The notes beneath the pieces were generated by a model that saw only the letters and a program-made list of their open reading frames with translations, was not told the DNA's origin and did no database searches. Of a DNA stretch of 35,137 nt, positions 8,831 to 34,740 are shown one piece after another (position 1 is the first letter of the stretch; each line of letters starts with the position of its first letter). Source of the stretch: Linderina pennispora (lineage: Eukaryota > Kickxellomycota > Kickxellomycetes > Kickxellales > Kickxellaceae); assembly GCF_002104995.1 (NCBI RefSeq), contig NW_024468349.1, forward strand, positions 1-35,137, read 5' to 3'. The position numbers and the translations under genes are program-made.

Positions 8831-9703
8831 ATGGCTCCTACTATTGTCTTCATTGGCGGCGGCAACATGTGCGAGGCTATCCTGTCTGGCCTGCTCAAGA
8901 TTGGCCACCCGACTGCTAATGTCCGTGTGTCTGAGCCCTTCCCCGAGCGTGCCCAGTATCTGCGCGAGAAGTACTCGATTGACGTGTTTGAGAGCAACGA
9001 CGACGCCATCACCGGCTCTGCAGGCAAGATCTCCACGTCACCTGCCGACGTTGTCGTCCTGGCCGTGAAGCCGCAGGTTGTTGCCGGTGTCGTGAAGGGG
9101 GCTTCAGCGGCTCTGCTCGCTGCCCAGCCGCTGGTCATCTCGATCGTGGCCGGTGTTGCTATTGCCGACTTTAAGCGCTGGATCCACAGCTCGGGTGACA
9201 GCAGCGCCCACGTGCCTCTGGTGCGCCTGATGCCCAACACCCCGGCCCTGGTTGGCGAGGGCGCTGCCGGTATGTTTGCCAACGAGGATGTCAGTGCCGC
9301 GCAGAAGGAGCAGACCGAGTACGTGGTCAAGAACATCGCCAAGGAGTACTTCTGGGTTGCCAGCGAGTCGGGCATCGACGCTGTCTGCGCTGTCAGCGGC
9401 TCTGGTCCTGCCTACTTCTTCCTGGTCATCGAGGCCATGGAGAAGGCTGGCCAGGACCTGGGTCTGCCGGCTGATGTGGCTAAGAGGCTGGCAGCCCAGA
9501 CTGCGCTCGGTGCCGCCAAGATGGTGCTGACCAGCGAGGACGATGTTGCCACGCTGCGCCGCAAGGTCACCTCGCCCAACGGCACCACCCACGCCGCCAT
9601 CGAGAAGATGAAGGAGGAGCGTGTCCCCGAGGGCGTCGACCAGGGGATGAAGGCGTGCTTTGCCCGTTGCTCGTCGCTGTCGGAGGAGTTTGGCAAGCTT
9701 TAA
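8831..9703 (+). CDS. PRO3: Pyrroline-5-carboxylate reductase
   Basis: 290 residues, intact and of normal family length. It catalyses the last step of proline synthesis, NAD(P)H-dependent reduction of 1-pyrroline-5-carboxylate to proline. The N-terminus has the Rossmann dinucleotide motif VFIGGGNMCEAILSGL. Residues about 75-83 read VVLAVKPQ, and RLMPNTPALVGEG is the conserved substrate-side loop. The C-terminal dimerisation helices carry SGSGPAYFF and the family signature around AAQTALGAAKMV, ending with VTSPNGTT. The start is fixed by homology to residue 1 of the Rossmann strand. It is flanked by a TATA box upstream and a poly(A) signal downstream. Codon use is GC-rich, typical of a well expressed gene here. 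Confidence 0.96.
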   Translation: MAPTIVFIGGGNMCEAILSGLLKIGHPTANVRVSEPFPERAQYLREKYSIDVFESNDDAITGSAGKISTSPADVVVLAVKPQVVAGVVKGASAALLAAQPLVISIVAGVAIADFKRWIHSSGDSSAHVPLVRLMPNTPALVGEGAAGMFANEDVSAAQKEQTEYVVKNIAKEYFWVASESGIDAVCAVSGSGPAYFFLVIEAMEKAGQDLGLPADVAKRLAAQTALGAAKMVLTSEDDVATLRRKVTSPNGTTHAAIEKMKEERVPEGVDQGMKACFARCSSLSEEFGKL

Positions 9704-11684: not shown

Positions 11685-12082
11685 ACGCAGCCCCCCTTGC
11701 GATTCATTTGTTTTTGCAATAGAGAGCTATAGGGTAGATCTGCCTAAATGAGTCACGCAAGCTCGCTAGTGCTGCGAAAGAGAACGAACGAGTTTCAGAA
11801 TCTAACCAGGGCGATGGACTTTTAAGTACGCCATTGCACCCAGACATAAAGAACTAGCAGGACACCAAAAACTATGAACGATGTCGATGGCAACAAGAGC
11901 ACAGCACTGCAGATACAAGCACAGCAAGCCCTGTTTGCCAGGTTAATTCAGTTTATGCATGCTACAAGAACGACGAGATAGGTTACTAAGCCAGCTGGCT
12001 AGGTGATGGCCACAGGCTCTGTGGCATGATTGGTAATGTTGTGCACCTGCTGCAGCTGGCCCTGATATCGACATGTCAGCCG
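11685..12082. other. Intergenic region left of the Fanzor island
   Basis: About 400 bp without a coding frame. A perfect 7-bp-arm hairpin (GCCACAG-GCT-CTGTGGC) lies at 12009-12025. CpG starts to thin out after about 11975. Confidence 0.45.
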
Positions 12083-12257
12083 AATCAGGTGACAGCAGTC
12101 CAGACACCAATGAGAGCCATGCTACAGCCTACAATAGAGGTAGTCTAACCTTTGATAAGTTGCACAGATGGCCATATAGAAAACTCCCCTGCACAACTCA
12201 TCTATTCCCATTTCTCTCTTTTCTTCATTTTTAAATATAACTTTTAAAATCCCCACG

Positions 12258-13465
12258 CATTCAACAAACACAACAGTATATCCATTATGAACATTCCTAA
12301 TATAAATATAGTACCTAAGCCTAAGAACAGTAAGGCAGCTACTAATAGTAGCCCTATAGTAGCATAGTCAGTAGACATCTATTATAGTGATCTATAAGCT
12401 ATATTAGCAGCCTTTTAGAATATGTGCTCTATGATTAAGTATACTATAGGGGCTGTTCTTAGACTTGTAAATTTTAGTAATTTACAATTTACATAGATGT
12501 TTAAATAATCATTTTCAGAATAAATTTTTAATACTAAATATATTTTACTTAGAAAATAATATTATTATATCCAGAATATTGTTGTTCATATGGTTACTAA
12601 GTTATAAATATTTTTCTTACTACTTCACCTAAACTACTATCAGTTTCATAGAAAAGTTTCAGTGAATATGATTTCTTTATAGTTGATTAGCCACAGCTAT
12701 TAAGATATTGACTTTTGTTGCCTAAAGATAATTAACCCCAAATATACAAAGCTTTTTCTTTCTGGTTGAAAGCATATTTACTAAAACTTATATAAGATAC
12801 TGATTGTAGTTTAGGTGAAATGTTTATTTTACTGAAATTGCAAATAATTATAATATATTTAAACAATTTATAGGCAGATAGGTAATTCTGTATAACCTCT
12901 TATAGCTAGCTAGTATCTTTACCTTTATATAGGATTTTATAGTCCTAAAAGTATTTAACTATCTGCTAGAAATTATATAATTAGTTAAAAAAAAACTATT
13001 AAGCTTTAATATAGGTTTAGGTAGCTTGCTCTATAAACTCCTTTTGATCTTGTGTGGCATCTGACCTCATCAGTGAAACCAGGGTGACAAGTTGTTATTG
13101 TAGTGGTCACAGGTCTCCACTGTATATCTCCACTGGTTCAGCATAAGAGCTGCTCTCATTGTCAGTCAGCCTGATAACTTCTATGGCATCATTATGGTGG
13201 TCATCACTGGCTATGCAACACTCTTAGGATGTTTATTTATAAGCATCTATAGAATGAGGCCATATAGCTCTACTAGTAGTCATATAATATTTGTAGATTT
13301 ATTTTATAAATTAATTTGTCTTATGAACATGTGTAAGCAGTAGTATTTGGGCCATAATGGCCCCAGTCTGTATAGACTGATTCAAGAGACTGTATCTGTG
13401 CTAAGGGCCCCAAGAACTATGCAAGCCAGATAATTTTTAATAAAAAGTTCTTAATGCTATGCATA
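12258..13465. other. CpG-free AT-rich tract
   Basis: Line-by-line reading finds no CG dinucleotide in 1208 bp, while TA, TG and CA are common. No open frame is kept: stops occur about as often as chance predicts for such AT-rich DNA. The best reading is old methylated, decayed mobile-element DNA forming the 5' arm of the Fanzor island. Promoter-like T/C-rich sequence precedes the Fanzor ATG at about 13490-13527. Confidence 0.85.
13349..13379. repeat. Two adjacent perfect hairpins upstream of the Fanzor gene
   Basis: GGGCCAT-A-ATGGCCC (13349-13363) is followed directly by CAGTCT-GTAT-AGACTG (13364-13379). They lie about 150 bp before the Fanzor start, inside the CpG-free arm. Confidence 0.7.
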
Positions 13466-13527
13466 CGCAATACAGCAAAACTGAACAGCATCATTTCTCT
13501 TCTTACTTTGCCTATTGAATTTCTCAA

Positions 13528-15182
13528 ATGAATATTACCCGCAGCGCTACTGTCATAAAGACATCACTTGGTGGTATTGGCTTCCGTGATTCCATGTTAC
13601 CCTGCCTAGAGCAATTTGTACACAGTGTCAACATCATCAAAGAGCATACATACATGCTTGCACGATGGATATTACTCCATCAACTAGCTGACGATGATGC
13701 CTTTGACCCTACAACATTTGTAAAAAAGGGATTCTTTCGTTCTATTTATTTATTTATCTATCATAACATGAAGGCAAATCCACTTGCTGCTGCATCGGCG
13801 GCAGCAGCAGACACTGTTGCAGCACTTAACAATGCATATGCACTAGCACCCCCAGTCTGTGCACACGACCCGGTCCAAGGGATCACACAATCTGTGTGGG
13901 ATGTGTGGGGCCAGGTCGTAGGTCAAACATCAAAGCCATTTAAGGCGCATGGTGATAGAAAATTCCACAGAATGGTGACAACAAATGGTGTAACGATATG
14001 CACTTTGTTACAAGACAAGGTATCCAAGGCTGATGGTGCAGTAGATGCTGATGGTGCAGGAGGTAGTGCTACAGGAGGCGATGCTACAGCTGACTGTCGC
14101 TATATCCACCAGATCCCACAGCCAGAGCTACAGAATCAGAAAGGCCGCTGTGTATTCATCGATCCAGGTCGGGGCGATTTGCTATACATGATGCACGAAA
14201 ATAACAGTAATGGGAAAGGGGATGAAAAATGTTCTACCGCTACATACGGCAGCAGCGCAATAAGGAGCTCAAGCTGCGCCACTATGACAGGGTTCGTTGG
14301 GATACAAAGGATCAAGTCCCAGAAGATGCTGTCCGCAGAGCAGAGGCAGAGCTTTCCAAGCACTGCTGCCGGACCCTTAGCCCAGCAAAATTCCGTGCCT
14401 ATGTTGCTGCCCGTGCATCTGTGCGGTGTGTCCTAGCACCGTTTTATGCCAACACGATGACAGCGCGAAGGTAACCAGAGCAGCAGCCCACTAAGTCAAA
14501 CAAGCAGCGCCAGAGGCGCTGGAAGGCCCATCCGGGTGTCGGGACCAGTCCCAAGGTGTACCCGCTTCACTGCAAGCTGCGCCTTGATTCATTCATGAAC
14601 CAGGCCCGTGCAGACCACAGGCTTGCCGCGAAACTCCGGAGCAAGTTCGGTCCAGATCCAGTGCTGATCATGGGCAATTGGAGTGCGCCGATGGCCCGGC
14701 GCCATGCGCCGATTCGTGGCAAGGGATGGCGCGACAAGTTCAAACACCATGGCTTTGAAGTCTATCTGATCGACGAATTCCGGACATCGTCGATGTGCCC
14801 GTTCTGCTGCGAAAAGTCGCTGCAGACATTCCGGCATGTTCCCAACCCGCGGCCCTACCAGAGATCGAAGAACCCAACTGTGAAGTGCCATGGCCTTCTC
14901 CACTGTACAAGCGAGTCATGTAAGCGGGCCATGACACAATACAGGCGAGCCTATTCGTCTCGGCTCTTGAACCGCGATCTCGCAGCAGTTCTAAACTTCA
15001 GACTCGTTTTCCAGTCACTCTGTGATTCAGGCAGTATTCCTGAATGGTTCAGTCATTCTATGGCCATTGCTACCCATGCTTCCGGCACCACCCCTGCAAC
15101 AAAGAACCTGCACAAGAGAAGTTCAGCAGCAGGCGATTCTGCTGCCAGCAGCAGCGAACCAGTGCTGAAACACCAGCGCTGA
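13528..15182 (+). CDS. Fanzor (TnpB-like) RNA-guided DNA endonuclease, one frameshift and one in-frame stop
   Basis: About 551 codons. The N-terminal 200 residues are helical and poorly conserved, with an Ala/Gly-rich insert (about 165-190). The split RuvC domain follows: RuvC-I CVFIDPGRGDLL with Asp at codon 14161-14163; a helical region (FYRYIRQQRNKELKLRHYDR); GNWSAPMARRHAPIRGKG; RuvC-II YLIDEFRTSSMCPFC with Glu at 14775-14777; a zinc ribbon with Cys at 14796, 14805, 14886, 14904 and 14919 (CHGLLHC motif); and RuvC-III NRDLAAVLNF with Asp at 14976-14978. These blocks in this order are typical of Fanzor/OrfB zinc-ribbon nucleases, which cut DNA guided by an RNA made from the element's 3' part. 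The gene starts in one frame and changes at the A5 run 14225-14229, where one more A joins the halves. A TAA at 14472-14474 either is a nonsense codon or lies in a 45-nt in-frame intron (14471-14515). Confidence 0.88.
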
Positions 15183-15330
15183 GCAGGCAATAGATATGGG
15201 AGATGTCCATGATCGCCATTGCACTAACAACAATCCGACACGTTCAAATGACCGGTTCGCCGTGATGCCCTCATCGACGTGTCAATCCATGCTGACTAGC
15301 AGCCGAGCTCGCATCGCGAGCAGAGTATTT
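15120..15330 (+). ncRNA. Candidate guide-RNA (omega/fRNA) scaffold region at the Fanzor 3' end
   Basis: Three stable hairpins follow each other across the stop codon: 15126-15132/15139-15145 (GCAGCAG with CTGCTGC, 6-nt loop); 15261-15267/15272-15279 (CGTGATG with CATCGACG, one bulged G, loop CCCT); and 15307-15312/15316-15321 (GCTCGC-ATC-GCGAGC). Guide RNAs of TnpB and Fanzor elements come from the 3' end of the element and often overlap the ORF end. The boundaries and function are inference; transcription was not observed. Confidence 0.25.
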
Positions 15331-15527
15331 CTAGTATGGATATATAAAAGTATGCTAGTGCAGCTGTCTTATGCTTCATTTCTAACCCCTCTATTTTCTA
15401 TTGGGATATGGTCGGAATTGGCCTGTTGCTGGGCTCTAGGGTTTAGCAGAGTAGGCAGGTGTGAGATAGCTTATGGTAGGGGTCTTAATAGGGCCCTTTC
15501 AACAGATAGAGAATGCTGGATCTGCCA

Positions 15528-15539
15528 GGTCCTAGGACC
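15528..15539. repeat. 12-bp perfect palindrome near the right end of the Fanzor island
   Basis: GGTCCTAGGACC, a perfect dyad without spacer, lies in the CpG-poor right arm about 50 bp inside its edge. Confidence 0.6.
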
Positions 15540-15589
15540 AGTGAGTAGTGGGGCTGGCATGGCCATATTTTGGCTGTGCCCTGGCTAAG

Positions 15590-16266
15590 CGGGCAGCGCC
15601 CTTTTATATGCAAGTAGCAGGGCCGAGCTTTGGCTGCGAAGAGGGTTAGACATTAGCCAGCGCTGTTTCAAAGAGGCGTACTGCATTCGTCATACCATTG
15701 GGCAATATGCACTCACGTGCTATATGCTGTCAACAGCGAATTCCGATCGTCGCACTATTTTTTCTGCAAGAGCAAGAAAACGTCGCAAAATCCCCCACTA
15801 GAGCCTGAAACAAGCGATGTCCTCCTCTCGCTTTCGCTGCTAAGTTATCGAGTCAATTATTTATCTCTTTTCTACTGGTTTGCACTCTTCACACCTTTTG
15901 CTGGCGAAAGATAGGATAAACACACACTACCACACCGTAGGTCTCTATTCACGCGCCACCTTGCAGCGCAAAAAACACAGCTCTTCTTCCCTCCCCAAAA
16001 TAGAGCCAAGTGGGCCGCTAAAGACGAACGAACGAAAGGTACCAACCAGGGTGGCAGCTGCTTTGCTCACTCGCGCTAACCAGAGTTTTTTTATTTGTTT
16101 GCTGGCTGGCAGATGAGCACGCACTCACCGATTTGACCAATCTTTCTTTTTTGTATTCACTATAGCCGTGCTGCTCTACAGGACCACAATCAGCGGTCTG
16201 CATTCACTCACCCAGCACCTGCACGTACACAACGCATACACACACACTAGGCATTTCCAGGCGACG
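15590..16266 (+). promoter_or_regulatory. Upstream region and long leader of the myosin V gene
   Basis: CpG content returns to normal here. A CACGTG E-box lies at 15714-15719 and an inverted CCAAT box nearby at about 15695. From about 15840 the sequence is pyrimidine-rich, as in long fungal 5' leaders. Short frames in this region have no coding character. Confidence 0.4.
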
Positions 16267-19200
16267 ATGAGCTCACCCAGCACCGAGGCGAGCCTGGCGG
16301 AATTGAAGGTGTACGCCAAGGTACCGTATTGCTCGATAAACATCCAACCCCGAGTGCGCTCACAGCACAGTACAGCGACACCCACGCTGAGGGGCGAGGA
16401 CTGAGAGGCCTCTAAGCCTCATGTCTACTCTATCTATACTCTGGGCACAGGTATACGCAACAGCGGCTCTAACCACAACAAAACAACAAGAGGAAAATAG
16501 GGAACAAAGGCATTCTTTGCTGACGATGAGAAGGCTTGGGTCCAGGCGACACTGACAGAAAAAGTGGTCGACGAGGCCAGCCGCACAGTCAAGATGACAT
16601 TTGAGGGCAACGACGAGGATGCGCCGCAGACATATCACTTTGAGGCGACTTTTGACGAACTGCTCAAGAAGCTCAAGGGCCTGCCGCCGCTGGTGAATCC
16701 GCCGCTGCTGGAGGGAATCGATGACCTGACGAACCTCAGCCACCTCAACGAGCCAGCGGTCCTGCACAACCTGCACGTGCGGTACGGGATGCACAACATC
16801 TACACGTACTCGGGCATCGTGCTGGTCGCGCTGAACCCCTTTGCCCGTGTGCCGCTGTACTCGCAGGATATCCTGGAGGCGTATGCAGGACGCATGCGGG
16901 GCGAACTCGAGCCCCACCTGTTTGCGATCTCCGAGGATGCATTCCAGGGGATGGTGCGGGACCGGAAAAACCAGACCATCATTGTGTCTGGCGAGTCAGG
17001 AGCGGGCAAGACCATGAGCGCAAAGTACATCATGCGCTACTTTGCATCGGCGCACGAGGACGGCAGCTCGTCGAACGATTCGTCGGGGATCAGCAAGGTT
17101 GAGGAGCAGATCCTGGCCACAAACCCGGTTCTTGAGTCGTTTGGTAACGCCAAGACCACCCGCAACGACAACTCGTCGCGGTTTGGAAAGTTCCTGGAGA
17201 TCCGATTCAACGAGCGGCACGCCATCGAGGCGGCGTTCATCCGCACATACCTGCTTGAGCGGTCGCGTCTGGTATACCAGCCAACGATTGAGCGCAACTA
17301 CCACATCTTTTACCAGCTGCTTGCGGCGGTACCCGAGGACATGCGTGACAAGCTCGGACTCACCAATGCTACGTGGGAGACGTTCCACTATATGTCGCAG
17401 GGTGGCAGCGGCGAGATCGCCGGTGTCGATGACGCAGTCGAGTTCAAGATCACCAGCGATGCGCTGTCTGTCATCGGTGTCAGCAACGAGAGCCAGAAGC
17501 TGATCTACACGCTGCTGTCTGCGCTGCTGCACATGGGCAACCTGGAGATTGGCGGGTCAGAGCGGATGGGAGCTTCGATCAAGGACGATAGCGCGGCGTG
17601 CAACAAGGTGGTTGAGCTGCTCCAGATCGACGGCACGCTGTTCCGCAAGTGGCTGACCAAGAAGCAGATTGTGACGCGCAGCGAGAAGATTGTCAGCAAC
17701 CTCACCGTAGTCCAGTCGCAGGTCGTTCGGGATTCGGTGGCAAAGTTCATCTATGCACATCTGTTCGACTGGATCGTCGCTACTATCAATGCGTCGCTGG
17801 TCGGATCGGCAGCTGGTGATCCGGCGTCGTTCATCGGCGTGCTGGACATCTATGGGTTCGAGCACTTTGAGCACAACTCGTTTGAGCAGTTCTGCATCAA
17901 CTACGCCAACGAGAAGCTGCAGCAAAACTTCAACCGCCACGTGTTCAAGCTGGAGCAGGAGGAGTACCAGCGCGAGCAGCTGGCCAACTGGACGTTTGTT
18001 GATTTCCAGGACAACCAGCCGTGCATTGATCTGATTGAGGGCAAGCTAGGTGTGCTAGCGCTGCTCGACGAGGAGAGCCGGCTGCAGCAGGGCACGGACA
18101 AGACGTTTGCCGAGAAACTGTACAGGCAGTTTGCCAGCTCGCCCAAGCCGCAGCCCGAGACGCCGTCGGCGTTCTTCCGCAAGCCGCGCTTTGGATCAGA
18201 CAAGTTTACTATCCGGCATTACGCCCATGACGTTACATATGAGTCCGAAGGGTTTATCGAAAAGAACAAGGACACGGTGCCGGACGAGATCCAGAACGTG
18301 CTCAAGGCGTCGACCAACTCGTTCCTGAAGGAGATCCTGGTGGAGCCCGAGCCCGAGCAGCAGCCGGCGCCAAAGGGCCGGCTCAGCGTGCGTGCCGCTC
18401 GCAAGCCGACGCTCGGCACTGTGTTCAAGCACTCGCTGGTGTCGCTGATGGAGACGATTGAGGCGACCGAGTCGCACTATATCCGCTGCATCAAGCCAAA
18501 CGAGGCCAAGGCGGCGTGGCAGTTCGACGCGCCAATGGTGCTGGCCCAGCTGCGTGCCTGCGGTGTGCTCGAGACGATCCGCATCAGCTGCGCTGGCTAC
18601 CCATCGCGGCTGCTGATCCCAGAGTTTATCCACCGCTACCGCGTTCTGCTGCCCTCGGAGGTCTCGTCGCAGGCAAACTCGATGGAAGACGTGCGTGCGC
18701 TGGCAGTCAAGATCCTTGACTCGGCGTTCCAGGAGAGCGACCGCTACCAGGTCGGGCTGACCAAGGTGTTTTTCCGTGCTGGCATGCTCGCGCTGGTCGA
18801 GAAGCTGCGTGTCGAGCGGCTCAACAGCGCTGCCACCAAGATCCAGTGCCTGGTGCGCGGGTACCAGCAGCGCACAAAGTTCCTCAAGATGCGCAAGGCA
18901 GCCCGCGTCATCCAGCTCGGCGTGCGCGGGTATCTGGCGCGTCGCGAGCTGCAGAAGCGGCGCAACACCCGCGCTGCGGTGGTCATCCAGTCGGCGGTGC
19001 GTGCCTACCTGGCTCGTACCAACTATGCCCGCGAGCGCCATGCAATTGTGCGGCTGCAGGCCATGGTGCGCGGCAAGATCGCCCGCAAGCAGACGCTTGC
19101 TCTGCGCCAGGTGCATGCGGCAAGCGTCATCCAGAAGCACGTACGTGGCCACCAGAAGCGCAGCGCGTATCTGCACCAGCGCGACCTGGTCGTCAAGATG

Positions 19201-21417
19201 CAGAGCAACGTGCGCGCTCGTGCTGCCCGGCGCGAGCTCAAGGGGCGCAAGGAGGAGGTGCGGTCGGCTGCTCACTTCCAGGAGGTCACATACAAGCTCG
19301 AAGGCAAGCTGATGGAGCTCACGCGTCAGCTGCAGACCCAGCGCAACGAATCGAAGCAGCTGTCGATCCAGCTGGCCGAGTCGGAGGCCCGCTCGGCCCA
19401 GCTGGCCGAGAAGCTGGCTGGCTCGCAGCAGGAGTCGCGGGAGCTGCGGGACCAGCAGGAGGACAAGATCCGTCTTGCCACCGAGGAGCTGACGCGCCAG
19501 GTGGCCGAGGTCACTGCTGCCAAGGCGGCTGTTGACGAAAAGTGCAAGCAGCTGGTGGACCAGGTTGCGGCTACGCACAAGGAGCTCAACGCCGTGCGTG
19601 CTGAGGCCGAGCGGGAGCGCGGCGAGTCGATGACTGCTCGTGAGCAGCTCGAGAAGAAGCTGGAGGAGCTCGAGGCCGAGCTGTCTGCATCCAAGACGCA
19701 GCTGGCCGACGCCCGCGCCCAGCACCAGCAGCAGATGCTGATCTACCAGCAGCAACACAGCAATGAGCAGCCATCGTCGATCAAGCGCTCTGACACCAGC
19801 GGCAGCAGGTGGAAGGCAGCGGCCAACTACTCGGCCACTGGCTACGAGATGGCTGACTCGGCCACGCCGCCGCACCCGCTGCCGCACGTTGGTGGCGCTG
19901 TCCTGCCCAATGCCCACGCCAACGCGCACCCGATTTCGCCGGTCGAGGACGTGCAGCGTCGCCCGCATTCGGTTGACACTGCGCGCCAAGCCTCTGCGCG
20001 TGCACTGGAGAGCGTTGCCAACAAGCGGTCGACCATCGGTGGCGACGAGGGCCGCACATTGGCCAAGATGCTGGGCTCGCTTGGTGCGTTTGGCGCCGGT
20101 GCGATTGCCGAGGAGGAGGAGCATCCAGCCTTCGAGCTGCACAGCGAGGACGAGGTGCGCGATATGCTGGAAAGCGACGACAACCTGATCACCGAGGTAC
20201 TCAATGAGCTGATCGGTGATCTGCAGGTGCCGTTGCCCAACCTGGACGCCGAGTACTCGCAGCCTGACCTGCTGTTCCCGGCGCATCTGATCGGCCTGTG
20301 CGTGATCAAGATGTTCCAGTACAACCTGTCGCGTCGCATTGACCGGCTGCTGATGTCGTCGATTGCTCGCATCCAGAAGAAAACCGCGGCGTTTGAGTCC
20401 GACTACACTTCTGCGTTCTGGCTGTCGAATGTGTTTGAGCTCCTGTCAATCATCAAGACATCGATGACCGAGCACCAGTCGTCGACGTACGAGTACGCCG
20501 AGTCCGAGCGTGCCATGAACGAGGGCATGCAGTATCTGGAGAGCCTCCTGTCGGACATCTACTTTGGCTGGATCAGGGACCTGCAGAAGCGCTTTGGCAA
20601 GCTGATCATCCCTGGCGTCGTCGAGAGCGAGGCGCTTCCTGGCTTCACTGCCAACGACTCGAGCTTCTTCAACCGGCTCATGGGCACTGGCCCGCGCGAG
20701 TCGCCGGTGAAGATCGAGAACGTGCTGAGTTTCTTCAACCACATCTGGCGCACGATGGAGTTCTACTTTGTAAACCCCGCGATCATGCGCCAGATCATGT
20801 CGGAGCTGCTCTGCAACATTGGCGTGACGGCGTTCAATAACATCATCATGCGCCGCAACTTCTGCTCGTGGAAGCGTGGCATGCAGATCCAGTACAACCT
20901 GACCCGCATCGAGGAGTGGTGCAAGACACACAACGTTGCCGACTCGTCACGCAACCTCGACCGCCTCCTGCAGCTTGTAAAGCTGCTGCAGCTGCAGAAG
21001 TCGTCGGAGCAGGATATCGACATTATGTTCGAGGTCTGCGACCTCCTGAACCCAGCCCAGATCAAGAAGCTGCTGTCGATCTATGCTGTCAGCGACTACG
21101 AGAACCCGATTGTCGGCCCGGTCATGACCGAGGTTACCCGCCGCGCTGCCTCCACCGAGAAGTCTGACAACATCCTTCTCGACACCAACGATCTGACCGA
21201 CCAGGTCCTGTACCTGACTGCGCGCAAGGTGCCGGCGATCGAGACGTACATTCCGCCCGAGTTCAAGATGCCGCGTGTGCGTGCGCTGGTTGACTCGCAG
21301 ACCGATGTGGCGTACGATGACGATGACGAGGAGTATGGAGATGAGGACGACGAGGTCGGCGACTACGGCCACCACCCAGTGGACCGGTACAGCGAGCAAA
21401 CGCTGGCCTACAACTAA
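16267..21417 (+). CDS. MYO2: Class V myosin heavy chain (two exons: 16267-16320, 16501-21417)
   Basis: 1656 residues, intact. This actin motor carries vesicles, vacuoles and other organelles toward growth sites. Exon 1 encodes 18 residues ending in VYAK; exon 2 begins with GTKAFFADDEKAW, which restores the usual N-terminal beta-barrel motif and fixes the splice. Motor domain about 70-785: P-loop GESGAGKT (about 182), switch I NDNSSRFGK (about 240), switch II DIYGFE (about 467), then the actin-binding region. Six IQ motifs (about 792-933) bind calmodulin/light chains. A Glu/Gln-rich coiled coil follows (about 942-1105), then a linker and the DIL globular cargo-binding domain (about 1275-1598). 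The C-terminus is very acidic (DDDDEEYGDEDDE). No frame break occurs in 4.9 kb, in contrast to the genes near the window ends. Confidence 0.95.
16321..16500 (+). other. Intron of the myosin V gene
   Basis: 180 bp, phase 0, donor AAG/GTACCG and acceptor ATAG/GGAACA. A branch-point-like CTCTAAC lies at 16467-16473. A second AG at 16508-16509 would also keep frame but would drop the conserved GTK residues. Confidence 0.8.
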
Positions 21418-25942: not shown

Positions 25943-28900
25943 ATGGCGGAGACGCAGCTTGTTAGCACCACCACAACGCTGGCGCAGCAGGCAGCATATG
26001 CGGCAACCGCAACGCTGGTAGCGCTGGTACGCAGGGACGATGGCGACGACTCTCCAACAAGCAGCTCGCGCTCGCAGATTGACATCAACGTGTCGTACCT
26101 GTTTGACCCAGCCAACGCGCCAGGAACCGGACCGTACTTTTCAGCAAACAACATTGATGCGGCGACACAGATCACATCGGCAGCGCTGATGGGCGGGTGC
26201 TGTATCGGAGTGTTCTCGCTTCTGCGGTACAAGTGGCCGGAGCTGTACTCGCACCGGCTGCGGCTGCGGTACATGCGGCCAGCAAACATCCCGCGCACAA
26301 TGTTTGGGTGGATCTACCCGATGGTGACAATGTCGGACAGACACGTTTTCGAGACGGTGGGCGTGGATGCACTGCTGTTCTTCCGGTCGTACCGGATGAT
26401 GATCTATATATTTATGTGGCTGGGGTTCCTGGGGATGACGGTGCTGTATCCGGTAGATCGGTACTGGGGCAAGGAGGACGGCGACAAGGGCGAGCACTCT
26501 GTGTTTGAGTCGCCGATTGCCAGCGTGGCTAGCCTCAACGGGCGGTACTCGGTAGCGCATGCACTGATGGCGTATGTGTTTGCGGCGGTGCTGTTTTTCT
26601 ACATCGACCGGTTTTCGCTGCACATGGTGACGATGCGGTGGCACTATCTGCTGCTGACGCGGCGGTCGGGGAACTCGCGCACGCTAATGATCACGCATCT
26701 GCCACGCGAGCTGCGGTCGGAGCGGGCGCTGCGGGGATTCATCAACGGCATGCATGTGGGTGAAGTCGAGGCGGTTCACGTGGCCCCGCTGTCGCGCGAC
26801 CTGGACGAGGCCCTGGCGCGCCGCGCAGCGATCCTGACGAAGCTCGAGGCAGCGTACACGGCGATTCTGGGCAACCCGTGCCGGGCACACACATACAACC
26901 CGGCGCTTCTCAAGCGGGTGATTCTGTCAACAGACCCGAGGGCTCGTGTGGTAGAGGCGCGGCTGCTGCACCGGTGGGCAAAGCATGGCAAGGGCAGCAA
27001 GAAGCAGCAGCAGCAGGGGCCCAAGAAGTATGCGGAGCGACCCACGGTGCTGGTCAAGCGTACGCGGGCAGAGCAGCCCTCGTGGTCAGCGCTGAGGGCC
27101 AAGCTGTGGCCGTATGAGCGCACCGACGCAATCGACTACTACCGCAGCGAGATGACCAAGGCTGACCAGCGACTGAAGGAGGTGCGCGACAGCTTCCACA
27201 TGCTGGAAGCCAGCCCAGTAGCGTTTGTGACGATGCGGCAGCCGGTCAATGCGTACGTGCTGGCACAGCTGAATGTGTATGCCACGCCCAGCACCTGCAA
27301 GATCAAGATGGCGCCCGAGGCGCGGTCGATCGTGTGGAAGAGCGTGGGGGCGCCGTACTCGAAAAAGCTCCTGCGGTTCGTCCTGGGGCTGATCATGTCG
27401 TTTGCGCTGCTGTGTCTGTGGTGCGTGCCCGTAGTTCTGATCTCGACGCTGATTTCGCTGCAGTTCCTGGGCACGCGGTTCCCAGACCTAGCGCATGTGG
27501 TGGAGACCAACAAGTTTGTGCGCTCGCTGCTCAACTACACGCTGCCGTCGCTGATCCTAACCATCTTCATGACGGTTCTGCCGCGCCTGCTGTGGATCTT
27601 TGTGCTGATAGGCGGCGACCGCACCTACGGCATCGCCGACAAGAATATGCTGATCCGGCACTTTTACTTCCTGGTCATCTACATTGTGTTTATTGTCGGC
27701 ATGTCGGGCACCGTGTGGTCGTCGATATACGAGATCTTCACCGAGTTTGGCAAGTTCTGGAGTCGGCTCGTCAACTCGCTGCCGCAGCTGTCGACGTGGT
27801 TCTGCGTGTATGTGATGCTGTATGGCGCCGGATACCAGGTCATGAAGCTGCTGCACTTGAAGTCTGTGTGCCGGTACCTGTGGCACCAGGCCAATGCCAG
27901 GACGCCGCGCGAGTACATGAAGGCGATCTCACCAGTGTTCATCGACTGGGGCACCATTATTCCGTACCCAATGCTGTTTTTCATCATCGGCCTGCTGTAC
28001 TCGCACCTGCAGCCGCTGCTGCTGGTGATGTGCATTCTGTACTTTTCGGTCGGGCTGTTTGTGATGAAGTACATGTGCACGTACTCGTGGTACTTCCGGC
28101 AGCAGAACTCGGGGACATTCTGGCCCGTGATCATCCGGCGCTGGGTGATTGGAATCCTGCTGTACCAGGCGCTGACCACTGCCATCTTTGCCAGCAACAA
28201 CAACCACTGGTTCGTAGCGCCGATGGTCGTTTTGATGCTGTTCACGGCCTACTATTTTCTGGTGCGCTGTCGGTACATCCGCGAGCTCAGCGACTCGGTG
28301 CCGCTGCAGCTGCTGCGCGAAGCCGAGCGCCGCCGCAAGGTCACCCTGGCCAAGGAGCAGCGCGAGTTCGAGGAGAGCGAACGCAGGGCTGAGCGCGACC
28401 TGCAGCTCAACCGCAGGGACCCACTGGGTGCTGGCACTGGCGTTGGGTGGGCGGACCTCCAGGACCGCCGGCCGTCAAGCAACTCGGACGAGTCGCCTGG
28501 TCTGCCTCCGCTCCACACCGTGCCGACACAACCCGGCAGCATTGCGAGCCGGCTCACCTCGATTTCCGCTGACACTGAGAAGCCCGAGGAGGACGGCCCA
28601 AGCTCGCCGCAGTTCTTGACAGCGCGTGAGGCGCACCAGCGCGAGTCGACGGCACCGCTGGTTCCATCGGATGTGCTCGATGGCGGTTATCCGCGCGGAC
28701 CATCGAACAGCAACACAGCGTCGCAGACCAACGATGCTGAGGGCGACACGCTGATCACGCAGCGCACGCACGCCAAGCGCACGCGCAAGTGGTACCAGTC
28801 GACAGCAGTGAACATGGTTCTGCACCCAATCCAGGCCCTGATCGCCACCGTGTCGTTCAGCAGCACCTGGATCAGCGGCGACCCAGCCGCACCGCTGTGG

Positions 28901-30217
28901 GACTTTATCGACGACTATGCGTTCCCGGAGCGCGTCTCGCGCATGTCGCACCCAGCCGGGCGGTCGCCCATGGACCCGCACCGGCCGAAGGCGCAGCCTG
29001 GGTCGCTGTTTGAGATTCTGTCGCTGGCGTTCCGGCGGATTCCGCACGGACTGCGGGTGATCGGGGGCGAGTTCTTCATGCAGTTCGACATTCCCAAGGC
29101 GTACCTGGACAGCAGCGTGGTGGACTACCCCGAGGCTGCTGCCAACGATGACGCGTTCCGAGTCAAGCACAAGCACCGGTCTACGCGCAAGAAGCGCAGC
29201 CGCGAGCGAGGCCTTAGTGACACCTCCAGCGCCAACGACTCGCTACTATCCGACCACAACCAGCACGACCTGTGCCCGCGCAATCTGCCCAAAGACACAA
29301 TCGTGCGGCTACACAGCGACACCGACGCCCTCAGCATCCATGAGGGCGGCATGCATCGGCCCGGCGTCGGCATCCACCGCGCGCGCACCTTCATGCCTGA
29401 AATCAACCCGGCCACCGGCAAGCCCGTGGCCATGCAGTTCCAGATCCATGCCGACGAGTTGCCGCACGGCACTCTGATGAACCGCCGGTTCACTGACTTC
29501 TCGCAGCCCAACATGTCGCGACTGCCGGGTATCCTCGACTCCACGCGCTTCGCCTACCTGCACCCGGGCATTTACGGCGACCTGCCATCGCTCTGGCTGC
29601 CTGTGCCGCACCTGAAGCGCCGCAAAGAGCAGCACCAGCATCGCACTCCTGCACAGCGCCTGCATAGCGCCATGGCCGGCATCGGCGATGCCGTCGAGGC
29701 TAACATTATTGGCGAGAAGAATGTCGACAAAATCCATCAGAGGCGCGAGCGAGCACGTGACAAGTGGGCTGCGCGTGTGCGTCACCCACGCGTCTCGGCC
29801 CTGAACCAGCGCGACAGAGCCGCGTCCGAAAGCCCAGCCACGTCGCCCGGCACCAGCGACTCGGAGGGCGGGGAGGGCTACACCAGCCCACCACCCATCA
29901 ACCCGCAACTTGCTAGCAAATGCAAGGCTCTGGGGTTCGATGCCAGCATCCTGCGCCAGTGTGATCCCACTGGTCTGCATGGCCTTGATCTGGCGCGCCA
30001 GCCCACTGCCGAGTCCACCCTGTTGTCAGCCTATGTCTCAGACGCAAGCTCTATGGTCACTACCGACTACGATCAGGTCCCGAACGGCGACAGTCTGTCA
30101 GGCAGCGAGTCTGACAACATGGACGAGACCGCAAGTGACCTCAGTGCTGCTCTGCGCGGACTCCCGCCCCCTGTACAGGATGCTGCGCGCGGCATGGAGG
30201 AGGGCCGCATGCCATAG
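25943..30217 (+). CDS. CSC1/OSCA/TMEM63-family stress-gated cation channel with a long C-terminal tail
   Basis: 1424 residues, intact. The family forms calcium-permeable channels opened by osmotic or mechanical stress. N-terminal helices lie at about 73-93, 148-170 and 203-225 (with a WIYPMVTMSD motif between). A cytosolic domain (about 242-470) starts with SRTLMITHLPRELR, the RRM-like PHM7 cytosolic fold. The core helices (about 472-780) include the family's conserved pore region. The last about 640 residues are mostly disordered and Ser/Pro/Arg-rich, with two more ordered islands (around FIDDYAFPERVSRM, and a patch after FDIPKAYLDSS). Typical fungal members are about 800-1000 residues, so this tail is unusually long. 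The start is the first ATG after a pyrimidine-rich leader. Confidence 0.93.
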   Translation: MAETQLVSTTTTLAQQAAYAATATLVALVRRDDGDDSPTSSSRSQIDINVSYLFDPANAPGTGPYFSANNIDAATQITSAALMGGCCIGVFSLLRYKWPELYSHRLRLRYMRPANIPRTMFGWIYPMVTMSDRHVFETVGVDALLFFRSYRMMIYIFMWLGFLGMTVLYPVDRYWGKEDGDKGEHSVFESPIASVASLNGRYSVAHALMAYVFAAVLFFYIDRFSLHMVTMRWHYLLLTRRSGNSRTLMITHLPRELRSERALRGFINGMHVGEVEAVHVAPLSRDLDEALARRAAILTKLEAAYTAILGNPCRAHTYNPALLKRVILSTDPRARVVEARLLHRWAKHGKGSKKQQQQGPKKYAERPTVLVKRTRAEQPSWSALRAKLWPYERTDAIDYYRSEMTKADQRLKEVRDSFHMLEASPVAFVTMRQPVNAYVLAQLNVYATPSTCKIKMAPEARSIVWKSVGAPYSKKLLRFVLGLIMSFALLCLWCVPVVLISTLISLQFLGTRFPDLAHVVETNKFVRSLLNYTLPSLILTIFMTVLPRLLWIFVLIGGDRTYGIADKNMLIRHFYFLVIYIVFIVGMSGTVWSSIYEIFTEFGKFWSRLVNSLPQLSTWFCVYVMLYGAGYQVMKLLHLKSVCRYLWHQANARTPREYMKAISPVFIDWGTIIPYPMLFFIIGLLYSHLQPLLLVMCILYFSVGLFVMKYMCTYSWYFRQQNSGTFWPVIIRRWVIGILLYQALTTAIFASNNNHWFVAPMVVLMLFTAYYFLVRCRYIRELSDSVPLQLLREAERRRKVTLAKEQREFEESERRAERDLQLNRRDPLGAGTGVGWADLQDRRPSSNSDESPGLPPLHTVPTQPGSIASRLTSISADTEKPEEDGPSSPQFLTAREAHQRESTAPLVPSDVLDGGYPRGPSNSNTASQTNDAEGDTLITQRTHAKRTRKWYQSTAVNMVLHPIQALIATVSFSSTWISGDPAAPLWDFIDDYAFPERVSRMSHPAGRSPMDPHRPKAQPGSLFEILSLAFRRIPHGLRVIGGEFFMQFDIPKAYLDSSVVDYPEAAANDDAFRVKHKHRSTRKKRSRERGLSDTSSANDSLLSDHNQHDLCPRNLPKDTIVRLHSDTDALSIHEGGMHRPGVGIHRARTFMPEINPATGKPVAMQFQIHADELPHGTLMNRRFTDFSQPNMSRLPGILDSTRFAYLHPGIYGDLPSLWLPVPHLKRRKEQHQHRTPAQRLHSAMAGIGDAVEANIIGEKNVDKIHQRRERARDKWAARVRHPRVSALNQRDRAASESPATSPGTSDSEGGEGYTSPPPINPQLASKCKALGFDASILRQCDPTGLHGLDLARQPTAESTLLSAYVSDASSMVTTDYDQVPNGDSLSGSESDNMDETASDLSAALRGLPPPVQDAARGMEEGRMP

Positions 30218-33149: not shown

Positions 33150-34740
33150 ATGGGCATGTTTAACTTCTCGCTGGCTGTGTATCTGTTTGCTCCTTTTGCA
33201 CACTGCTGGCACATTTGCCAAACCCCCAGTGGTGGTCGGGTACTATCCAACATGGAAGCGCCAAGCTATTGCTGCTGTTGACATCAGCAAATACACACAC
33301 GTCAATGTGGCATTTGCTATCCCCAAGGAAGACGGCTCGCTCACCTTTGAGGGCGACTGGTTCATGGACAGCACTGTCAAGGAGCTCCACGGAAAGAACG
33401 TAAAAGTGCTGGTATCCGTAGGTGGATGGACCGGGTCGAACCACTTTTCTAACATCCTGAAATCCGCGACGACAAGTTCAACAGGCTGGTTGGCAGCATG
33501 GCTTACTACGTAAAGAACTACAACCTTGACGGCATCGACATTGACTGGGAGTACCCGGGACGGATTGGCAACGAGTGCAACGCATACGACCGCTACTAAT
33601 GACGCGGCCAAACTTCCTCAGGTTCCTTCAAGCTCTTCGTACGCGCTTCAACAACGACTTTGGCTCGCGCACAAAGCTGATCACACTGGCGGTGCGGGTA
33701 CAGCCATTTGATGGCCCCAACGGCCCGCTCGCCGATGTCTCCGAGTTTGCCAAGGTCGTCGACTATGCGAACTTGATGCAGTACGACCTCAATGGGCCAT
33801 GGAATCCTGAAACGGGACCCAATGCTCCATTTGATTACCAGCAGGGAAAGTCGGCGCCATTCTCCTTCACCACCGCCATCGATTCTTGGACCAACGCTGG
33901 ATGGCCTGCCAACCAGCTGAACGCCGGCCTTGGCTTTACGGACGGTCGACAAAGGCCACTGTTGATATGCGCCAGGATCCCAACAACCAGTACCAGCCCC
34001 AATCACACGAAGTACCACTAGGTGATTCGGAGGATGGTCCCTGGTATGATGCCTGTGCTGGATCAACCTCAAATTCAGGAACCTGGCAATGGAGGCACCT
34101 GCGCGACCAGGGTGTCCTGGTATCGCCTACCTCCTCCAACCCACAGTGGATGCGCCAGTGGGACAATACTACCAAAACGCCGTGGCTATTCCAACCCGCA
34201 AAGCAACATCTACTTATCATAACGACGACACAGATAGCATACGCATCAAATCTGACTATGCTGCTGAACGTGGACTTGCGGGTGTCATGGTGTGGTCAAT
34301 AAACATGGACCACGATGGAGAGCTTGTCAAAGCAGCACGGTCCTTTGGTGGTAACTCGGGCAAAAATGATCAACCACCTCTGGCACCGCATCTCAGCACC
34401 AGCCTCTGGCTCTACTCCTATTCAAGGCGATAGGCCAGGTGGGACCATCAGCACCTCAGCCGACCCATCGCCATCATCCTCAGAGCCACCTCCACCGGCT
34501 TCTGGCAGCCAATTGATCCCAGGAAATCCATGCGGCATGAATGGCAGTTACCAGTGCATTGATGGTGGCGGCCGCAATTCCGCGTATGTTGTCTGCCACA
34601 ATGAAAAATGGCTGGCTCGCTCGTGCGCACCCGGAACCGTCTGTCTGGAGCTTGGCCGGTCGATCTTGTGCGGCTGGCCCGTATTTGCGCGCATAGTCGC
34701 CTCAGCAAACAAATTTGCGCATGGTCTCTCAATTGCATGA
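33150..34740 (+). CDS. GH18 chitinase with CBM19-like C-terminus, about eight frame breaks
   Basis: The ATG at 33150 opens a signal peptide once one T of the run 33185-33187 is discounted. The GH18 barrel follows: VVVGYYPTWKR, VSVGGW, the catalytic motif LDGIDIDWEYPG (about 33530-33550), MQYDLNG, GLAGVMVWSINMDHDGEL (strand 8), then a Ser/Pro linker. The last part is a Cys-rich module (NPCGMNGSYQC, CAPGTVCLELG, CGWP) like CBM19 of yeast chitinases. It would hydrolyse chitin in the fungus's own wall or in prey. The frame is lost at about 33186, 33461, 33597 (TAA), 33611, 33936, 34185, 34222 and 34405. Most breaks look like one-base changes in short homopolymers, with motifs resuming at once. 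Heavy sequencing error or a pseudogene are both possible. Confidence 0.8.

Follow-up and report, generated by a model that had tools for sequence, protein, structure and literature searches.

Fanzor1 Genes and the Elements That Carry Them

The nearest precedent found for the locus described here is provided by the Fanzor1 elements CRe-1, CRe-2 and CRe-3 of Chlamydomonas reinhardtii, which were reported by Bao and Jurka in 2013 and lie within Helitron2 transposons (PMC3627910), and the residence of Fanzor1 in Helitrons is thus already known. As described in that source, these elements are multicopy non-autonomous Helitrons that share their ends with a RepHel Helitron. They have asymmetric terminal repeats and two hairpins, insert after TTTT, in many cases with duplication of the target, and contain genes of 5-10 exons. 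Their copies are frequently truncated at the 5' end or deleted internally, while the 3' end is kept. In the same source, SPu-1 of Spizellomyces punctatus is described as a TIR element with a putative TA duplication and 17 full-length copies (PMC3627910). At the protein level, the REC and WED domains of Fanzors, located on the side ahead of RuvC-I, grip the TAM and the guide (PMC11423790); a DPG motif marks RuvC-I and the catalytic Glu is placed six residues ahead of the first zinc-ribbon Cys (PMC10711439).

The window, meaning the whole stretch of DNA analysed, is the entire 35-kb contig C4 (NW_024468349.1, 35,137 nucleotides) in the 26.17-Mb, 222-contig assembly of the fungus Linderina pennispora. 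The best explanation of the evidence as a whole, and a very probable one, is that the locus represents a canonical Helitron with a Fanzor1 gene, in a copy that is non-autonomous and has decayed. Like the CRe elements, the Fanzor1 elements of this genome are numerous non-autonomous Helitrons sharing ends with a RepHel Helitron, and they display the same 5' truncations and internal deletions with a retained 3' end (PMC3627910). Unlike them, they carry canonical Helitron1 ends (TC ... hairpin-CTAG, A^T insertion) without asymmetric repeats, their gene is one uninterrupted frame, and the RepHel element abuts the Fanzor element; the TIR architecture of SPu-1 is likewise different. The gene in the window is ordinary, being a dead Fanzor1 copy, and it is the system that is unusual, combining a canonical Helitron, an adjacent RepHel partner and a wide spread of Fanzor1 in one fungal genome. 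A search of the open-licence literature returned nothing on Fanzor together with Linderina or with Coemansia, and what it returned on Kickxellomycotina with Helitron concerned other elements, judging by title. The available excerpts of PMC8226300 and PMC12730594 mention TnpB and Helitron merely in passing.

The Fanzor1 Gene in the Window

The following features of the gene were recognized.

13528..15182, plus strand: Fanzor1 pseudogene from ATG to TGA, from the ORF translation and PDB sequence matches
13778..13779, to within a few bases: junction of an 834-bp in-frame deletion (278 codons) in the N-terminal half, from alignment to L010 and other full-length copies
14161..14163, plus strand: RuvC-I Asp codon GAT in IDPGRGD (DPG motif), read in the letters
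14225..14229, plus strand: A5 run with a single-base frameshift, one base short of L010
14472..14474, plus strand: in-frame TAA stop, read in the letters and the translation
14775..14777, plus strand: RuvC-II Glu codon GAA in LIDEFRTS, at the alternative position according to the motif definition of PMC10711439
14796..14921, plus strand: zinc ribbon, from CPFC through the last Cys of CHGLLHCTSESC, from the translation, the PDB match and the alignment of relatives
14976..14978, plus strand: RuvC-III Asp codon GAT in NRDLAA, read in the letters and conserved

The matches obtained identify the encoded protein as a true Fanzor1, in agreement with the original prediction of a Fanzor-type RuvC nuclease. 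A 208-aa C-terminal piece of the window copy matched PpFz1 of Parasitella parasitica (PDB 9cf0, E 1.6e-39) and SpuFz1 of Spizellomyces punctatus (PDB 8gkh, E 3.2e-27) in the PDB sequence search, and a 709-aa stretch of an intact paralogue matched the same two proteins at E 3.8e-73 and E 3.1e-34, respectively. The structure prediction that had been proposed as a check pointed the same way: when an AlphaFold2 model of the 208-aa piece (mean pLDDT 77.7) was compared with the PDB by Foldseek at E up to 0.001, all six matches were PpFz1 or SpuFz1 chains (E 1.2e-13 to 3.5e-9), with low TM-scores of 0.41-0.44 by query length. PpFz1 (PDB 9cf0-9cf3) is the closest solved relative, with GNWSAP, DEFRTSS and the zinc ribbon in common, and it differs from the protein encoded here, which has a Gly/Ala-rich low-complexity stretch ahead of RuvC-I. 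The GNWS motif, formerly regarded as a possible lineage variant, turned out to be ordinary, since it is the consensus in the alignment with 33 relatives as well as part of the GNWSAP of PpFz1.

Homology to Fanzor1 was clear in the PDB; in the proposed profile search, the curated Pfam and NCBIfam cut-offs were not reached. The PF07282 cut-off (26.3 bits) was missed by the window piece (19.4 bits) and by L010 (16.2 bits), and the NF040570 cut-off (100 bits) was missed at 16.8 bits. Since three relatives (P0002, P0003 and P0004) also fail PF07282, these scores are taken to mean that the profiles under-detect the clade and are no ground for placing the protein outside it, and in view of the sub-threshold matches the identity was decided by the PDB sequence search and Foldseek. 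PF26935 is the precomputed label on most of the listed relatives, and the Pfam search conducted here reported no PF26935 match in three of them. The search for relatives with residues 505-820 gave 132 at E up to 1e-5, and the 120 listed are mostly from Coemansia, accompanied by Dichotomocladium, Rhizopus, Mucor and kin. With the full-length protein, 7,999 candidates included a single relative, and a candidate list crowded with low-complexity words is the probable cause.

On re-reading the letters, the ORF limits, the two frame breaks, the three acidic RuvC residues and the zinc ribbon with its CPFC and CHGLLHC motifs all proved to have been placed exactly. The window copy has the DPG motif at RuvC-I, and its alternative Glu is intact (E-FRTSSM-C). 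From this intact set of catalytic codons it had been concluded that the gene was recently active and nearly intact, with two minor interruptions. That conclusion is contradicted by comparison with the paralogues, which alone brought the 834-bp internal deletion to light, together with the element boundaries. Aligned to L010, the window copy lacks approximately codons 84-361, and it is also short of 93 bp of low-complexity sequence, of one base in the A5 run and of a further 3 bp; with this deletion, the frameshift and the stop, it has no complete open frame such as a working Fanzor1 would need. In a comparison of 16 copies it is also the one that has diverged furthest, with a mean distance of 7.6% to the 15 long copies, which differ from each other by 3.9-6.1% on average. 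The surviving catalytic codons are no mark of a working copy, because all 15 long copies keep all three, and a recently active gene, which could be rescued only by a mis-assembly of the window, deserves virtually no credence.

The deleted codons take in the first stretch that aligns to PpFz1, ahead of RuvC-I, and judging from this position the lost part is probably most of the recognition lobe. With so large an N-terminal part gone and the frame broken, the window copy almost certainly makes no guided nuclease. Because its ends and its RNA region remain, it could nevertheless be mobilised or supply RNA in trans.

Ordinary fungal genes surround the element in the window, encoding pyrroline-5-carboxylate reductase (8831-9703), a myosin with head, IQ and DIL domains (16564-21417), which we take to be of class V from its domain order, an RSN1-type channel (25943-30217) and a GH18 chitinase exon (33187-33513). 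On the minus strand, positions 1-2600 hold long, repetitive Ser/Thr-rich reading frames that resemble cell-surface proteins by eye. The GC content drops to 0.30-0.41 at 12000-14000, compared with about 0.5-0.66 in the remaining 1-kb blocks. Just upstream of the element, in AT-rich DNA, a MITE-like inverted repeat is present at 12624-12819, with 52-nt arms that are 85% complementary and 92 nt apart.

Element Boundaries and Insertion Site

The gene is embedded in an element with the following parts.

12916..15334, plus strand: Helitron-type element of 2419 bp with the Fanzor1 gene, from sharp BLAST boundaries in the window and at 20 loci; 5' TC and 3' CTAG
12916..12992, plus strand: 5' terminus TCTTTACC..., homologous, and diverged in the window copy, to a 77-bp stretch of the RepHel Helitron
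15307..15321, plus strand: 3'-terminal hairpin GCTCGC-ATC-GCGAGC, read in the letters; the RepHel element has a like plan
15335..15336, plus strand: right-flank TA, present at 50 of 52 distinct insertions sampled; assignable to either host or element

Full-length paralogous elements are about 3.34 kb long and start with TCTTTACC; such an element comprises one uninterrupted Fanzor1 frame of 857-876 aa between the 5' TC and the 3' hairpin-CTAG. The hairpin is followed by 13 nt that end in CTAG, which, together with the 5' TC, gives the canonical arrangement of 5' TC and 3' CTRR with a hairpin. First-look searches gave 250 candidates for the 3' end and 178 for the 5' end, and 40 of each were scored. 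Among 68 3' ends read, 62 fit the anchor, comprising 58 with CTAG or CTGG, three with CCAG and one with CTTG, and the six outside it also read CTAGTA by eye. The anchored ends represent 52 distinct right flanks, whose first two bases are TA in 50, CA in one and TT in one, so that the +1 base is T in 51. On the left side, 46 5' ends were read, and after removal of those joined to RepHel, those with unrecognisable or too-short starts and duplicates, 35 distinct flanks were left, with A at -1 in 31 and T or C at -2 in 29. These flanks point to insertion between A and T, without target duplication and with the consensus YA^TA, as in canonical Helitron1. Since a clean pre-insertion site was not found, the exact end is left as either CTAG or CTAGTA.

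Two other classes of element were considered and rejected. Helitron2 is disfavoured by the lack of asymmetric terminal repeats in five elements, whose longest complement of 5 nt equals the shuffle mean, and a TIR/TSD element of the SPu-1 type by the fact that neither feature was seen by eye in the printed ends. A TCTTTA unit occurs more than once in 15 of the 46 5' ends (e.g., L010, L014, L043, L044, L052 and L085), as if the terminal hexamer were repeated.

The RepHel Partner

The RepHel protein is missing from the window element and present in partner elements with a common 5' terminus. A PF14214 search of the genome gave 13 matches, several per gene, and the RepHel of L041 matched both PF14214 (2e-49) and PIF1 (2e-78), corresponding to an HUH Rep and a Pif1 helicase. 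The 5' terminus of this element is 98.7% identical over 77 bp to that of the Fanzor element L010, and its 3' end, GCTTGC-ATC-GCAAGC...CTAG, repeats the hairpin plan of the Fanzor element with one compensated stem pair. In the genome search, eight RepHel 3' ends (all eight candidates) and six RepHel 5' regions were found, and every one of the eight 3' ends directly abuts a Helitron 5' terminus. Seven adjoin a Fanzor element (in C171, C157 twice, C212, C1, C23 and C112), and the eighth (C2) adjoins an element sharing just the first 54 bp. The RepHel copies in C171 and at C157:1115024 have a common 5' flank, and the eight copies may therefore reflect few independent events.

The most economical interpretation is a composite Helitron of RepHel and Fanzor, from which Fanzor-only units also start. 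Alternatively, the RepHel and Fanzor elements could be separate Helitrons that became adjacent in all eight cases through preferred insertion behind the 3' end of another Helitron. Such independence would suit the complete ends that each type possesses and the far greater abundance of Fanzor elements, given the 178 5' and 250 3' first-look candidates against eight RepHel 3' ends; it fits poorly with the junction, which is G|T in the copies read instead of the A|T seen at 31 of 35 other 5' flanks, and with the finding that none of the eight RepHel 3' ends abuts non-Helitron DNA. Separate Helitrons are considered possible, though unlikely. Because the 5' terminus and the design of the 3' end are held in common and RepHel lies directly upstream of the Fanzor element, the RepHel Helitrons would very probably be the movers of the Fanzor element, whether in cis, with the two forming a composite, or in trans.

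Two further Helitron-like sequences were observed. L105 (C2) and the right flank of L064 (C23) have the 5' terminus (~54 bp) in common and a different interior, CGCTAGAGCGTTT..., and this element is either a divergent relative or the member of a second non-autonomous family. At G000:C68:198243-198650, a Helitron-like gene of more distant affinity lies within an open frame of 1989 aa (PF14214, E 5.8e-24).

Copies, Derivatives and Selection

The proposed search for paralogues found them to be abundant, with at least 150 matches to the C-terminal piece across the assembly (150 scored out of 271 candidates). A flank is shared with a copy on a different contig by 10 of the 62 anchored 3' ends, and the contigs concerned are probably homologous, which makes the copy numbers a little too high. 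Fourteen protein matches (L009-L022, all fetched) lie in frames that run for 798 aa or more without a stop, and nine of them contain the complete frame of 857-876 aa from the common ATG. The RuvC-I Asp, RuvC-II Glu and RuvC-III Asp codons are kept in all 15 long copies. The pooled pN/pS was 0.31 over eight intact copies and 0.39 over eight other long copies, which are mostly broken and include the window copy and the intact L014.

Shortened copies form a further group, as 38 of the 150 scored matches begin at query residue 86-89. Six of these were read and have internal deletions that remove RuvC-I and RuvC-II, with a right breakpoint common to all six and two different left breakpoints; their pN/pS was 0.46 overall, 0.41 in the N-terminal part and 0.70 in the short C-terminal remnant. 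Since their 3' end is intact and most have a recognisable 5' end, the derivatives probably moved in trans. The low pN/pS of the broken copies and derivatives suggests that the signal of selection is partly inherited from the source copies, and much of it may be.

Helitrons capture genes, and this habit raises the question of whether Fanzor is a passenger acquired by chance, a nuclease without benefit to the element. The multiplication of copies without RuvC-I and RuvC-II would be understandable for a passenger, and so would a pN/pS below 1 that extends to broken copies and derivatives, as the signal may be old. A useless nuclease would, however, hardly account for the value of 0.31 in the intact copies, for the catalytic codons kept throughout the long copies, or for the conserved 3' island described below, and chance capture is judged quite improbable.

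A Conserved 3' Island and a Candidate Guide RNA

Two features at the right end bear on a putative guide RNA.

15237..15336, plus strand: candidate omega-RNA scaffold, consisting of the 87-nt island (15237-15323), a spacer, CTAG and the fixed TA, from low diversity and a predicted fold
15337..15356, plus strand: predicted guide region in the host flank, from Fanzor/TnpB architecture

The 87-nt island (L010 3845-3931) has a diversity of only 0.019 in 15 copies. The values are higher for the 54 nt just upstream (0.085), the terminal spacer (0.092), the 5' leader (0.056) and the coding region (0.043). Of 113 sliding windows, the 10 that fall below the island are all coding. In the predicted RNA fold, 99.6% of pair cells are kept over 22 copies. 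In L010 this fold joins the T of the right flank to the scaffold by a base pair, a resemblance to the IS607 scaffold described below. No two-sided changes occur in the 3'-end fold over these 22 copies, so that covariation neither supports nor refutes it, and the fold energy is not exceptional (z -1.3 to -1.5). A search of 12800-15600 against Rfam at E up to 0.1 returned nothing.

The island is as expected of a guide-RNA scaffold and is regarded as a candidate for one. It might instead serve Helitron termination alone, a terminal hairpin being a Helitron hallmark that recurs in the like plan of the RepHel element, and the predicted fold having no statistical support; the island, however, extends about 70 nt inward of the hairpin, beside a fast-evolving stretch, which a purely terminating function would not lead one to expect. 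A role in termination only is therefore held to be the less probable option, albeit one with some weight. With the island as a scaffold, Fanzor very probably works with an RNA derived from the final ~100 nt of the element, the right flank serving as its guide. The fixed TA could then play the part of the fixed right-flank nucleotide that is included in the scaffold of the IS607 TnpB ISXfa1, which, unlike the present element, belongs to a serine-recombinase element of a bacterium (PMC10711439).

Homologous Contigs without the Element

Contig C168 is a homologue of the window, with 97.6% identity downstream and 90.6% upstream, up to 12821. Absent from it are the element and about 45 bp of flanking sequence, ~16 on the left and 29 on the right, counting the flank A. 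In C24, the homologue of the L015 locus, the element is likewise absent together with 43 bp, and a GTCA repeat marks the break. Five pairs of homologous contigs yielded no clean empty site: besides these two, L024 and L028 are occupied on both sides, as judged by adjacent matches, and in the fifth pair a full element in C161 (L010) faces ~1.2 kb of unread sequence between the same flanks at C1:1089851-1091039.

An overlap would be expected between the motif that Fanzor targets and the YA^TA of the Helitron: the A^TA insertion site accommodates the TAM of PpFz1, 5'-ATN (PMC11423790), and the YA^TA consensus resembles that of SpuFz1, 5'-CATA (PMC10432273). SpuFz1 cuts at positions 16-21 (PMC10432273), and the flank losses, with a right-hand reach of 17-29 bp, extend to about where a Fanzor with these TAMs would be expected to cut. 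The 43-45-bp losses are thus possibly nuclease scars; two cases are too few, and the same picture would result if the element had been lost imprecisely or if small insertions had occurred earlier. By cutting element-free sites, the nuclease would help the element to be retained or to spread. A fuller and more speculative scheme can be formulated, in which Fanzor cuts the element-free allele with the right flank as guide, the losses in both element-lacking contigs are repair scars, the TAM coincides with YA^TA, the fixed flank TA completes the scaffold, and the nuclease acts as the drive that spreads a rolling-circle transposon across a heterozygous genome; taken as a whole, this scheme is considered doubtful.

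Implications

As the locus illustrates, whether a particular Fanzor copy works can hardly be judged from the integrity of its catalytic codons. PMC10711439 poses the question of why an RNA-guided nuclease is carried by so many eukaryotic transposons that are unrelated to one another. With its many young copies of the complete gene, the adjacent RepHel, a recorded insertion motif and apparently two haplotypes, the genome of L. pennispora makes the benefit of such a nuclease to a rolling-circle transposon directly testable.
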